Below, in pieces: positions 10,605 to 27,531 of a stretch of 34,340 bases of DNA. The notes beneath the pieces were generated by a model. It did no database searches and was not told the DNA's origin. It saw only the letters and a list, made by a program, of their open reading frames with translations. A program made the position numbers and the translations under genes. Each line of letters opens with the position of its first letter. The stretch's first letter is position 1. Source of the DNA: Bacteroidota bacterium (GTDB lineage Bacteria > Bacteroidota > Bacteroidia > B-17B0 > Aurantibacillaceae); NCBI GenBank assembly GCA_013816615.1, contig JACDED010000034.1, forward strand, positions 1 to 34,340, written 5' to 3'.

Positions 10605-10678
10605 TCCTTCTTAGCTCAGCTGGTTAGAGCACATGACTGTTAATCATGGGGTCCCTGGTTCGAGCCCAGGAGAGGGAG
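10605..10678 (+). tRNA. tRNA-Asn (anticodon GTT)
   Basis: Full cloverleaf: acceptor TCCTTCT (10605-10611) pairs with AGAGGGA (10671-10677) with one T-G wobble; D stem GCTC/GAGC; anticodon stem CATGA/TCATG with loop CTGTTAA, anticodon GTT at 10639-10641; T stem CCTGG/CCAGG with loop TTCGAGC. The discriminator base is G, as expected for Asn. CCA is not encoded. A promoter lies upstream and a terminator directly downstream, so it is a single-gene transcript. Confidence 0.97.
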
Positions 10679-10681
10679 CGA

Positions 10682-10709
10682 AAAGGAAAGCGAAAGCTTT
10701 CCTTTTTTT
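10682..10709 (+). terminator. Terminator of tRNA-Asn
   Basis: A 7-bp perfect stem GGAAAGC/GCTTTCC (10685-10691 and 10696-10702) closed by a GAAA tetraloop, flanked by A's before and seven T's after (10703-10709). Confidence 0.92.
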
Positions 10710-10716
10710 ATTTATA

Positions 10717-10760
10717 CCTGGGCGAGAAGTTTATCCTGAGCGAAGTCGAAGGAAGCCCAG
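10717..10760 (+). repeat. REP-like hairpin element
   Basis: The outer arms CTGGGC (10718-10723) and GCCCAG (10755-10760) enclose the sequence CCTGAGCGAAGTCGAAGG. This core resembles small intergenic repeats seen scattered in many bacterial genomes. Only one copy is in the window, so its repeat nature rests on recognition of the core and not on counting. Confidence 0.6.
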
Positions 10761-10769
10761 AAGAGGGAG
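10755..10769 (+). repeat. Partial duplicate of the tRNA-Asn 3' end
   Basis: GCCCAGAAGAGGGAG matches the tRNA-Asn 3' end at 10664-10678 in 14 of 15 bases, at an offset of 91 bp in the same orientation. It overlaps the end of the REP-like hairpin. It could be an attachment-site-like remnant or chance overlap with the repeat arm. Confidence 0.5.
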
Positions 10770-10770
10770 T

Positions 10771-10807
10771 AACAAAAACCATGCAGAAATGTCGTGGTTT
10801 TTTTGTT
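10771..10807. terminator. Hairpin with T-run before the DUF5655-like gene
   Basis: The arm AACAAAAACCATG (10771-10783) pairs with CGTGGTTTTTTTGTT (10793-10807), with one wobble. The A-rich and T-rich flanks would allow it to act in either direction. It sits 15 bp before the next start codon and probably serves as a second stop for tRNA-Asn transcripts. Confidence 0.6.
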
Positions 10808-10821
10808 ATTTAGCCTTTGTA

Positions 10822-11193
10822 ATGGCAAAGAAAACACCTTTAAATGGCCCCGAAGATTTCTTAAAAGGAAAATCAGAATATACTTTGGCCTTATACGGCC
10901 ATTTTATTTCTGAATTTGAAAAGATTGGTATTATAAAGATCGAATCTACCAAAACCATGATAGGAATTTCTAATTCAAATAAACGCATTGCCTGGGTAAC
11001 GCAATTAGGCAAGAATTTTATTCATGTTGTTTTTCCTTTTAAACAAGCGTATTCAGATAATTTATGTTTTCAAAAAGTAGCTGAGGTTCCGGGTCAAAAC
11101 CAGGTAAATCATCATTTCAGAATGTTGTACAAAGAGGATGTAAATAAGGAAGTAATAACGTTTATGAAACTGGCTTTTAAAGAAGAGAAGTAA
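10822..11193 (+). CDS. Small cytoplasmic protein, DUF5655-like
   Basis: A 123-residue protein starting at the ATG 10822 (MAKKTPLNGPEDFLKGKSEY). The open frame runs much further upstream, but only because it crosses the tRNA and terminators. The pattern DFLKGKSEYTLALYGHFISEFEKIG, then IGISNSNKRIAWVTQLGKNFIHV and a closing NHHFRMLYKEDVN resembles the DUF5655 family of small nucleic-acid- or transport-associated proteins, function unknown. No signal peptide. The identification is from memory of the family pattern and only moderately sure. Confidence 0.65.
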   Translation: MAKKTPLNGPEDFLKGKSEYTLALYGHFISEFEKIGIIKIESTKTMIGISNSNKRIAWVTQLGKNFIHVVFPFKQAYSDNLCFQKVAEVPGQNQVNHHFRMLYKEDVNKEVITFMKLAFKEEK

Positions 11194-23089: not shown

Positions 23090-24473
<1,384 letters not shown>

Positions 24474-25190
24474 CTATTCGAAATATAGTGTATTAATTGG
24501 ATTTTTAGCAATAAAATTTTTTGTAATTTGGTCCGGATATATTCTATCATTTCCTAATTCTATTCCATTACAAATTTCTATTACAATATCAGAAGGTTCA
24601 GATTTAATTGTCTTTGTTTGTTCAGGAACCATTGGAGTATTTACATAACCCATATAAACAGCCATAACTTTAATGCCTTTTTCTGAAAGTTCTTCTCTAA
24701 TTGCTTCCGTCAAAATATGTGTTGCTGTTTTTGAAGCACAATAACTTCCAAGCCTTTTTACTATAACTAAACTTCCTATCGACAGTACATTTACAATAAT
24801 AGAATTTTTATTCTTTTCAAGATGCTGTACAAAATTGTTTATCATTTCTATTACACCAATATAATTGACCTTCATCTCAAAAGATGCGGCTTTACTGGCT
24901 TTTTCCGAAATAAATGGCGCTTTAAATTCTACACCAGCATTATTAATCAATATAGTTGTATCAGAACATATTAATACACATTTTTGAATACTTTCTGTAT
25001 TTGTTACATCTAATTCGACTGAAACTACCAGCTCACCGTATTTTTCAAACACGCTCTTCAAATTGTCTATTTTAAGACCGGTCGCATATATTTTCTTAAC
25101 TTTTCTGTTTATTAGTTCTGTAACTAATGCAGTTCCAAGTCCACCATCAGCCCCTGTTATTAATACAATTTGATTTTTAAATTCCGTCAT
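24474..25190 (-). CDS. Short-chain dehydrogenase/reductase (SDR)
   Basis: A 238-residue classical SDR: cofactor motif TGADGGLG (13-20), an LDVT acidic residue, NNAG (about 83-86), catalytic Ser in the SIGS stretch and YCASK with catalytic Tyr and Lys. It would reduce or oxidise a small alcohol/ketone with NAD(P)H; the substrate is unknown. Its TAG stop is directly followed, in the same frame, by the truncated recombinase, so the junction between them is a rearrangement point. A good promoter lies at 25258-25287. No partner gene is adjacent. Confidence 0.88.
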   Translation of the reverse strand: MTEFKNQIVLITGADGGLGTALVTELINRKVKKIYATGLKIDNLKSVFEKYGELVVSVELDVTNTESIQKCVLICSDTTILINNAGVEFKAPFISEKASKAASFEMKVNYIGVIEMINNFVQHLEKNKNSIIVNVLSIGSLVIVKRLGSYCASKTATHILTEAIREELSEKGIKVMAVYMGYVNTPMVPEQTKTIKSEPSDIVIEICNGIELGNDRIYPDQITKNFIAKNPINTLYFE

Positions 25191-25257
25191 AAAGTTATTG
25201 TTTGTGAATATTACGGTATACGCCGAAACGTTTATAAATGTAATGTTAATTAGTAAA

Positions 25258-25287
25258 CAAAAATAAGTTTGAATTTTGATGGAGCAA
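25258..25287 (-). promoter_or_regulatory. Promoter of the SDR gene
   Basis: On the minus strand, TTG (plus 25285-25287), a 19-bp spacer and a perfect TATTTTTG (plus 25258-25265). The leader to the ATG at 25190 is about 60 nt. Confidence 0.7.
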
Positions 25288-25535
25288 AAATCGGCTTTAG
25301 TTAATTACAATTAAATTAGTTGATTTAAGAATTACAATACAACTTTGACATTACGTTTGTATTCCAGGCTTTCGTATTTTTTTTTACTGTTTTTGTTAAA
25401 TGTTTATTTGTGTTTTAGCGATGCTTGTTTAAACTCTATGAGGTCATTTATTATAGTCATCGAATACTTGTAAAAAGTAAAATAATTAAAAGAATAATCC
25501 AAGAACCAAATACCATTCTGTTTTAGAAGATGCAT

Positions 25536-25576
25536 GTAGGTAATATTACCTATAGAAGGTAGGTAATATTACCTAC
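25536..25576. promoter_or_regulatory. Pair of perfect palindromes, probable operator
   Basis: TAGGTAATATTACCTA occurs twice (25537-25552 and 25560-25575), each copy a perfect 16-bp palindrome; the second extends to GTAGGTAATATTACCTAC (18 bp). Centres are 23 bp apart, about two helical turns. They sit about 40-75 bp upstream of the -33 TTG of the next gene. This is the form expected for two dimers of a DNA-binding regulator; no matching regulator is identifiable in the window. Confidence 0.8.
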
Positions 25577-25612
25577 TACCGAAATTAAAATAGCCTGCTC
25601 TAAATTAATATC

Positions 25613-25642
25613 TTGCTTAGTTAAATATTAATTATATCTTTA
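25613..25642 (+). promoter_or_regulatory. Candidate promoter of the kinase-stub gene
   Basis: TTG (25613-25615), a 19-bp spacer and TATCTTTA (25635-25642), one mismatch to TAnnTTTG. Expected leader is about 70 nt before the TTG start codon at 25718. Confidence 0.5.
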
Positions 25643-25717
25643 ATTAAACAACACTTACTGAATTAGTATTAAACTTTTCTAATATGGTTAAGAGCCCCTA
25701 TTAAAACTAAAATTATT

Positions 25718-26356
25718 TTGAAAACAGAAGAATTAAATTGCGATGCAAATAATGAAAATAATAATGGTAAATGCGAAGATGAATTACTTGCAGCTCAAAT
25801 TGAAATTGAAAAACGAGATAATGAATTGGAAATTGCCCATGTTGAAATTATCCATCAAGAGGAGGAGATAGAACTGCAGGCGACTGAACTTGTTGCGGCA
25901 TATAAAGAATTAAAGATTCAAAATATTTCCAAAGAAAAACAAGCAGCGGAATTAATCATTGCAAATAAAGAACTTACTTTCCAAAATGATGAAAAGGATG
26001 AACGTGCCAAGGAATTATTTATGGCCAATATAGAGTTAATGTTTCAAAATGATGATAAGGAAAAAAGAACAATAGAGTTAAATACTTCAAATGCCGAACT
26101 CATAAAAATAGATAAGCACTTAAAAGAACATATACGCGGTTTAGAGGAAATAATGTTTATGATTTCGCATAAAGTGAGACAACCGATTGCGAACATTTTA
26201 GGTCTGGCTAATCTTTTTGAATTAGAAAAAGACTCTTCAAAAGAGATAAAAAAACTTGTGATTTATAATAAGGAATCAGCACTTGCGTTGGATCAGTTCA
26301 CTAAAGAACTAACAATACTTATGAGTGATTTAAGAAAAAAGGCAGCAAACAATTAA
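25718..26356 (+). CDS. Coiled-coil protein with histidine-kinase H-box but no ATPase domain
   Basis: A 212-residue soluble protein starting with TTG. Residues 20-140 are a charged coiled coil with a 21-residue period (AAELIIANKELTFQNDEK, AKELFMANIELMFQNDDK, TIELNTSNAEL), a type seen as the signalling helix of Bacteroidota sensor kinases. Residues 142-205 resemble a HisKA dimerisation domain with the phospho-acceptor H151 in ISHKVRQPIANILG. The protein ends there: no N, G1 or G2 ATP-binding boxes follow, and the 194 bp after the stop do not encode them. It may be a phosphotransfer or dominant-negative partner of another kinase, or a 3'-truncated kinase. The first is speculation. Confidence 0.75.
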   Translation: MKTEELNCDANNENNNGKCEDELLAAQIEIEKRDNELEIAHVEIIHQEEEIELQATELVAAYKELKIQNISKEKQAAELIIANKELTFQNDEKDERAKELFMANIELMFQNDDKEKRTIELNTSNAELIKIDKHLKEHIRGLEEIMFMISHKVRQPIANILGLANLFELEKDSSKEIKKLVIYNKESALALDQFTKELTILMSDLRKKAANN

Positions 26357-26550: not shown

Positions 26551-27531
26551 TTACCCAACTGTCTCTTTATTGTACTTGCTTCTGTATTCTAAAGGCGATA
26601 CACCCGTGATCTTTCTAAAGACTTCTCTAAAGGCTTTTACGTCCGAATAGCCCACATCAAACATTACTTCGTTAACGGTTTTACGACTACTCTCAAATGC
26701 TTTTTTTGCCGATTCAATTTTTACACGTTGCGAATATTCAAGCGGTGTATTGCCCGTTGCTTTTATAAACCTTCTGTCAAAATTCCTTCTGCTAATAGCA
26801 AAGTCTGAAGACAGATCTTCAACAGATATCTTTTCCTTGAGTTTGGTTTCAATAAATGCTTGCGCTTTTTTTACCATCTCGTCTCCATGTAATTTTTGTC
26901 CTTTAAAGATGGTGAATTCAGATTGACTTTGCCTGTCCATTTCTATCTGAAAAACTTTGGAACAAAAAATAGCTGTTTGCCTGTCGTAATATTTTTCAAT
27001 AATATAAAGCATTAGGTTTAAAAAAGAATAAGCGCCACCATTTGTATAAATACCATTCTCATCAGTAATTAATTTATCGGCCTGTAAATTTACGTTTGGA
27101 AATATATTTCTGAATTCATCTGCTGCAGACCAATGTGTTGAACAGTTTTTTCCATCCAGTAAACCGGTTGAAGCCAGCAAAAATGCACCAGTACAGATGC
27201 TTGCTATTTCTGCTCCTTCTTTATATTGTTTTCCAAGCCAGGAGATCAGTGATCGGTTTTCTTTTACAGCTTTATGATAATTGTGATTTAAAGAAGGAAT
27301 AATAATAAGATCTGTTTTTTTAATTTCCGAAATAGTAGTGTGTGGTTTTACACTAAATAAATCACCATAAAAATCTACTTTTTTTGAAGTGCCTGCCAGC
27401 TGAATTGTAAATAATTCTTTTTTCATATTTTGTTTCCAATACGAGTTGGCTCGTGAAAATAATTTGTAAGCACCTACAATGCTGCTTAAATTATTTTCAC
27501 CGTTAGGTACTATTATTGTGAGATGTTTCAT
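26551..27531 (-). CDS. GlxA-type transcription regulator (DJ-1/PfpI domain plus AraC HTH)
   Basis: A 326-residue protein. Residues ~1-185 form a DJ-1/PfpI-like amidotransferase fold with the nucleophile-elbow sequence ASICTGAFLLASTGLLDG (Cys ~112) and HWSAADEF. Residues ~225-320 form an AraC-family double HTH (EDLSSDFAISRRNFDRRF, TPLEYSQRVKIESAKKAFE, NEVMFDVGYSDVKAFREVFRKITGVSPLEYR). Such regulators sense small molecules and usually act on a divergent neighbour. The SRPBCC gene is divergent here, with a direct repeat in between, so self- and cross-regulation are likely. Confidence 0.92.
   Translation of the reverse strand: MKHLTIIVPNGENNLSSIVGAYKLFSRANSYWKQNMKKELFTIQLAGTSKKVDFYGDLFSVKPHTTISEIKKTDLIIIPSLNHNYHKAVKENRSLISWLGKQYKEGAEIASICTGAFLLASTGLLDGKNCSTHWSAADEFRNIFPNVNLQADKLITDENGIYTNGGAYSFLNLMLYIIEKYYDRQTAIFCSKVFQIEMDRQSQSEFTIFKGQKLHGDEMVKKAQAFIETKLKEKISVEDLSSDFAISRRNFDRRFIKATGNTPLEYSQRVKIESAKKAFESSRKTVNEVMFDVGYSDVKAFREVFRKITGVSPLEYRSKYNKETVG

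Follow-up and report, generated by a model that had tools for sequence, protein, structure and literature searches.

A recurring pair of palindromes as the probable operator of a NarL/LuxR-type response regulator in an uncultured Bacteroidota genus

The palindrome pair and the genes around it

The window, a stretch of 34,340 nucleotides, is contig C52 of a host genome of 4.68 Mb in 246 contigs. It contains two copies of TAGGTAATATTACCTA, a distal one at 25537–25552 and an identical proximal one at 25560–25575, each a hexamer-4-hexamer inverted repeat with no assigned strand, and the two are separated by the 7-nt spacer TAGAAGG. A search of the window confirmed the original prediction that the palindromes are free of mismatches and have their centres 23 bp apart (pitch 23); the coordinates given then, 25536–25576, placed the site correctly and were one base too wide on each side. 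No further site within three mismatches of TAGGTAATATTACCTA was found elsewhere in the whole window, and shuffling the window gave a mean of 0.29 such sites, with two or more in 5 of 100 shuffles. The palindromes sit in a gap between two flanking ORFs (25191–25717), which has the 527 bp of non-coding sequence originally described.

The presumed target, on the forward strand at 25718–26356, is a gene for a 212-aa HisKA-like protein with a coiled coil. The HisKA match (E 0.0032) was below the cut-off, and no match to a HATPase or ATPase domain was found in this protein. Describing it as an orphan gene was not quite right, given the sub-threshold HisKA match and the matches to the ORF in 8 of the 11 genomes searched, many of them to the coiled-coil part only. 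Long repetitive open frames in the genus also match the coiled-coil part. On the opposite side of the gap is a divergent gene for a short-chain dehydrogenase (24474–25190, reverse strand), 349 bp from the sites. It is a less likely target, and the spacer between the palindromes resembles those pointing the other way.

The region upstream was compared in the three best homologues of the 25718 gene. One, in genome G056 (L230, 56 % over residues 57–208), has GGTAATATTACC and GGTAATATTACT at a pitch of 24, ending 130 bp before the start, while the closest, in genome G058 (L229, 70 %), has only the degenerate GGTATATGTACT; the third, a second copy in G058 (L236), is truncated by the start of its contig and is uninformative on an upstream site. 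A single palindrome lies about 60 bp upstream of a PAS/HisKA-like relative found in G054 (L233) and in the host genome (L029/L250). On this mixed evidence the 25718 gene appears a likelier target than the dehydrogenase, because a tandem pair lies upstream of the L230 homologue and because the window spacer TAGAAGG resembles TAAAAGG, which points towards the genes of the two-component cassette described below. The dehydrogenase and a gene for an AraC-type protein (26551–27531) are both in the window, and the palindromes could instead serve to repress the dehydrogenase through such a local regulator. We regard this as extremely unlikely, as neither gene type was recognised by eye among the nearest ORFs of other pairs and one homologue of the 25718 gene keeps the pair.

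Two other ORFs in the window overlap tRNA genes. A serine recombinase ORF (23090–24425) overlaps a tRNA-Met gene and lacks its N-terminal part, matching positions 72–145 only of the Resolvase profile; it is probably left over from an element that had inserted at the tRNA. The ORF at 10633 (within 10605–11193), the C-terminal part of which matches DUF5655, begins inside a tRNA-Asn gene (10605–10679), and its start is therefore probably wrong.

Distribution of the palindromes

Thirteen exact copies of TAGGTAATATTACCTA were found in the host genome, at six loci (contigs C52, C54, C81, C96, C126 and C209), all of them arranged as pairs or, in one case, a triple. Related copies with AAAT or ATTT centres were also present, some of them single. 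A tandem pattern of two GGTA-N4-TACC units 9–15 nt apart (allowing a pitch of 21–27) matched 13 times in the host genome and never with the reversed control pattern, and the single unit AGGTA-N4-TACCT matched 29 times, compared with 4 for its reversed control.

Many copies in one genome might be expected of a dispersed REP/MITE-type repeat or a recombination site, and it had been proposed at the outset that scattered copies would point to a repeat element. The copies are indeed scattered, but they precede genes and their flanks are mostly not homologous. When the 300-bp flanks of 10 pair loci were compared (45 locus pairs), long homology was found in only two locus pairs, both over related genes (C81/C96, 92 % over 296 bp; C81/C36, 70 % over 150 bp), while two further locus pairs shared just 24 and 35 bp of flank. 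At none of the 10 loci did the array overlap an ORF of at least 100 aa. Apart from these two locus pairs, the homologous flanks or element body and the positions unrelated to genes that mark REP and MITE elements were not seen, and the palindrome region had no match in phage records, nor was a strict pair found in viral contigs. Because the arrays lie outside ORFs and the flanks are mostly unrelated, the palindrome pair is, judged by its sequence context, probably a dispersed operator and not a repeat element. The sites also precede the same gene kinds across species and their half-sites vary by lineage, and a mobile repeat or recombination site is accordingly highly improbable. The same two observations, sites that precede genes and flanks that are mostly unrelated, speak against the recombinase that had been suggested as an alternative binder.

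Of 18 genomes from the genus, six contain strict pairs; none was found in the 43 family-sample genomes that belong to other genera. With a looser pattern, pairs were detected in seven of 40 genomes from the genus. A scan of named genomes identified 26 stretches with pairs, 20 of them in uncultured Bacteroidota MAGs that were taken as six of the genus genomes. Six pair loci were outside the genus (L064, L070, L071, L076, L077 and L087). At three of these (L071, L076 and L087) a gene for a NarL-type regulator ends 27–403 bp before the pair; no such gene was seen among the nearest ORFs at the other three. The L087 pair, a variant one, belongs to Flavobacterium urocaniciphilum and has a kinase gene beside it as well as the regulator gene. 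L070, labelled Parachlamydiaceae, shares its metagenome series (C12) with a member of the genus and is probably mis-binned. In the 40 unique pairs that remain when five loci from other taxa (L064, L071, L076, L077 and L087) are left out, the pitch was 23 in eight, 24 in 27, 25 in four and 26 in one, a spread bounded by the patterns used to recruit relatives, which permitted a pitch of 22–26 or 23–25 only.

The same gene kinds were found behind pairs in different species, as judged by eye from translations and with Pfam on examples. They include a DUF7793 protein with a PAS histidine kinase, Pmp3/YqaE, an 81–85-aa protein followed by one of about 142 aa, a family of about 160 aa without a Pfam match and a two-component cassette. 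The pair in the window is one copy of a putative paired switch that recurs before about a dozen genes in the host bacterium and its relatives. The genome-wide search that had been proposed as a means of naming the regulator found the copies but no TetR, MarR or Xre gene as a recurring neighbour; the regulator linked to the sites is a NarL/LuxR-type response regulator instead. A TetR-like ORF was seen by eye near the L019 and L024 sites and an Xre-like ORF, which matches HTH_3, near L024, and these classes find no support as binders, since such ORFs do not recur beside the sites.

A two-component cassette and its candidate regulator

In the host genome an array of three palindromes precedes a four-gene cassette (L023, 3766–6255). 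Its first gene encodes a protein of about 104 aa whose C-terminal cysteines are conserved, and genes for a membrane protein, a HisKA_3 kinase and a NarL/LuxR-type response regulator follow in this order. The last gene (G000:C46:5572–6255) encodes the candidate regulator, which matched PF00072 (Response_reg) at 88.4 bits (cut-off 30.2) and PF00196 (GerE) at 54.4 bits (cut-off 23.5); with both a receiver domain and a GerE helix-turn-helix it belongs to the NarL/LuxR type. The kinase has HATPase as well as HisKA_3, the ~104-aa protein has a DUF6968 match below the cut-off and the membrane protein has no Pfam match. A gene for a DUF3606 protein (25.6 bits, cut-off 24.3) adjoins the host cassette array. 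The original statement that none of the window's proteins is an obvious binder holds, the linked regulator being encoded outside the window. Contig C69 of the host genome also has an open frame of 84 aa that matches GerE.

In all seven genomes with pairs, the promoter of the cassette carries three or four units that deviate from GGTA-N4-TACC by no more than one mismatch and include at least one exact match; the last unit lies 152–154 bp before the ATG in each. The strict pair pattern matches this array in only three of the seven (G000, G041 and G054). A TAnnTTGT motif lies 43–45 bp before the ATG in 7/7 of these AGGTA-type cassette promoters. Among 40 genomes of the genus, orthologues of the regulator with at least 80 % identity were found in exactly seven, the same seven that have pairs, and the remaining matches were at most 55 % identical. 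These seven genomes may be one clade, and the phyletic match, weak by itself, is supportive only; it covers one of the 19 GerE matches in the host genome, the C46 regulator. Six of the 13 regulator matches in the search were at or below 55 %, and four of these yielded no operator, being either truncated at the end of a contig (G078) or not part of such a cassette (G001, G018 and the second G058 copy, where the stretch has no 104-aa gene). Two operons with 53–55 % regulators have variant palindrome pairs at about the same place, GAGTATTTCTACTC twice at a pitch of 23 in L128 (shuffle p 0.000) and AAGTATAAATACGT/CCGTATTTATACGG at a pitch of 24 in L127 (shuffle p 0.085). The recognition helices of these regulators also differ.

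We consider it likely that the window palindromes are a tandem operator of a NarL/LuxR-type response regulator, most probably the one encoded by the C46 cassette, and that they act in activation. The results behind this reading are the architecture of the site, its recurrence, and the link to the cassette by sequence and by phyletic pattern; the idea of a regulator binding two dimers is likewise supported by the genome-wide and comparative sequence data. Another NarL-type regulator of the host genome might bind the sites, with the cassette just one of its targets, and both the 19 GerE matches and a second such cassette in G056, which has a pair behind its genes, would fit with this. Against it, the cassette promoter carries an array in all seven genomes, and half-sites differ between lineages whose regulators differ in the recognition helix, with exceptions. 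We therefore regard a different binder as unlikely. The genes of the second G056 cassette (L086, 2061–2951) are followed by that for a 71-aa protein that consists of a GerE-type helix-turn-helix only.

The ~104-aa protein was found in 40 of 87 family genomes and in 31 of 295 genomes sampled from the class; five of the 31 belong to the same family. In a survey of 49 of the 54 family matches, a GerE-like helix-turn-helix was found 2.1–2.35 kb downstream of the 104-aa gene in 40 and 3.2 kb downstream in one, and was not found downstream in the other eight, some of which are cut by contig ends. Strong tandem palindromes were present upstream of the gene in 20/49 compared with 8/98 control promoters (p 5e-6). 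All eight high-scoring controls are sites of the same regulon (six in L122–L124 and two in L136, which was fetched because it held a pair), and the p value keeps them in. No strong tandem palindrome was detected by score at the other 29 copies. The count of 20 is probably low, as the strict tandem score missed arrays visible by eye (L125 and L126), and it includes one match (L181) whose gene start is uncertain and whose half-site is unusual. At the loci from the class search, strong arrays were found in 3 of 25 scanned (L258, L259 and L267).

The half-sites across cassettes were AGGTA, GAGTA, TAGTA, ACGTA, AAGTA and AGGGA; in the AGGGA cases (L198 and L203) the regulator was not found downstream. 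G013, from another genus, has eight CGTA-type pairs, two at the cassette promoter, one at the other end of the cassette and five elsewhere. Three of the eight are on the cassette contig (C17), and the pair at the other end is beside a DUF3606-like gene (22.7 bits, cut-off 24.3). Seven AAGTA-type pairs, distributed over five genomes, were present among the 87 searched; six are at cassette promoters and one is elsewhere, and no dispersed AAGTA regulon was seen in this set. CGTA tandem pairs were present without a match to the 104-aa family in G042 and G085 (L218, L221 and L219). At L188 the regulator helix is like that of the AAGTA group, yet only irregular sites were found, and L185 has one perfect site. 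It is conceivable, if somewhat less than probable, that the cassette represents a widespread type of Bacteroidota signalling unit not described before. Its regulators would have changed their DNA specificity several times over (AGGTA, GAGTA, TAGTA, ACGTA, AAGTA and perhaps AGGGA) and kept a rigid tandem operator (pitch 21–26), each lineage re-tuning its targets, and the small Cys-containing protein would be a signal or sensor part. This reading is made less probable by the finding of a clear dispersed set with another half-site only in G013 and by the location of nearly all AAGTA pairs at cassettes. Two sequences of the ~104-aa protein gave only a poor structure prediction (mean pLDDT 50.3), and the search for a relative with a solved structure found none (best E 0.68).

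Promoter geometry and comparison with known systems

Of 80 oriented flanks, 13 have a TTG that starts 2 nt past the TACC core and so adjoins the 16-mer (12 TATTG and one GATTG), compared with 0–2 flanks each at offsets 0–1 and 3–7, and 7/80 at offset 9. TATTG abuts 12 of the 40 unique pairs. An ORF begins within 350 bp in all 13 TTG-abutting flanks, and in eight of them the best −7 box (offsets 21–30) is within one mismatch of TAnnTTTG, always at offset 25–26. Excerpts of PMC9723704 give TAnnTTTG at −12 to −5 as the Bacteroidota −7 consensus. We infer that the TTG-abutting operators have their centres near −43 and −67, which would be a class II activator position. The window pair is without this geometry. 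The likelier window promoter is TTG-N19-TATCTTTA (25613–25642, forward strand), with predicted −33 and −7 elements of the Bacteroidota type, which is kept in the 70 % homologue (L229) and would place the operator centres near −79 and −102.

Tandem palindromes can also form an RNA hairpin or a DNA cruciform, and RNA from 25525–25600 is predicted to fold into an 18-bp hairpin (−25.4 kcal/mol, z −5.06). Among 71 pairs, asymmetric centres are mirrored in 22, which preserves the long stem, and both centres are self-complementary and the same in 17; they are asymmetric and in the same direction in 13 and otherwise different in 19, neither of which suits a hairpin. A hairpin does not require its arms to be palindromes themselves, as they are here, the class II arrays lie upstream of the predicted transcription start, and no terminator-like site is present within 25190–25760. 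A role as nucleic acid structure thus appears very unlikely. The mirrored centres (22, against 13 in the same direction) give many operators a second level of dyad symmetry; as a general rule, mirror-image centres were rejected, the two counts being too even and the pairs too related.

For the tandem operator of a NarL/LuxR-type regulator we propose the following. On receiving a signal, the cassette kinase would phosphorylate the regulator, one dimer of which would bind each 16-bp palindrome, with the dimers side by side at a pitch of mostly 23–25. The two neighbouring dimers would hold RNA polymerase at the promoter, giving activation rather than repression. Roughly one site in three has a −33-like TTG directly beside the operator, which would act there from the class II position; the window operator and that of the cassette promoter lie further upstream. 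The window operator would then switch on the 25718 gene.

An uncultured Bacteroidota genus would thereby gain a defined regulon and a probable regulator, readable from sequence alone, and a testable role is offered for several proteins of unknown function (the ~104-aa family, the DUF3606 protein, DUF7793 and the HisKA-like proteins without ATPase). As operator and regulator are encoded side by side, cassettes with differing half-sites could serve as a natural series for how NarL-type recognition helices choose DNA. No mention of the exact palindrome or of DUF6968, nor of a rigid tandem operator with lineage-specific half-sites tied to a conserved cassette, was found in the literature searched, which took in few subscription journals.

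The C46 regulator matches the solved structures of its family members VraR (E 2.6e-32), NarL (5.3e-24) and DevR (5e-23) over almost the full length, and the 25 NCBIfam models shown of 93 that matched (MctR, GacA, NarL and others) were all below their cut-offs. The cassette is like HisKA_3 two-component systems in having a HisKA_3 and HATPase kinase beside a GerE-type regulator, and differs from them in the added conserved ~104-aa protein and membrane protein without a Pfam match. ComA of Bacillus subtilis, which is of one family with NarL, has a site in which two hexamers form an inverted repeat around 4 nt; this site lies upstream of where the polymerase sits and has a second repeat nearby, according to excerpts of PMC4797271. 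The window pair resembles it in the hexamer-4-hexamer geometry and in the second repeat close by. The same excerpts give TTGCGG as the ComA hexamer and describe the second ComA site as a direct repeat spaced by 5 nt, whereas the half-site here is TAGGTA, both sites are inverted repeats and the pitch is mostly 23–25. The TAGGTA half-sites do not place the window pair in the ComA regulon, and only the geometry is shared. By analogy with ComA, which has the same hexamer-4-hexamer arrangement, the putative operator is of a kind already known.
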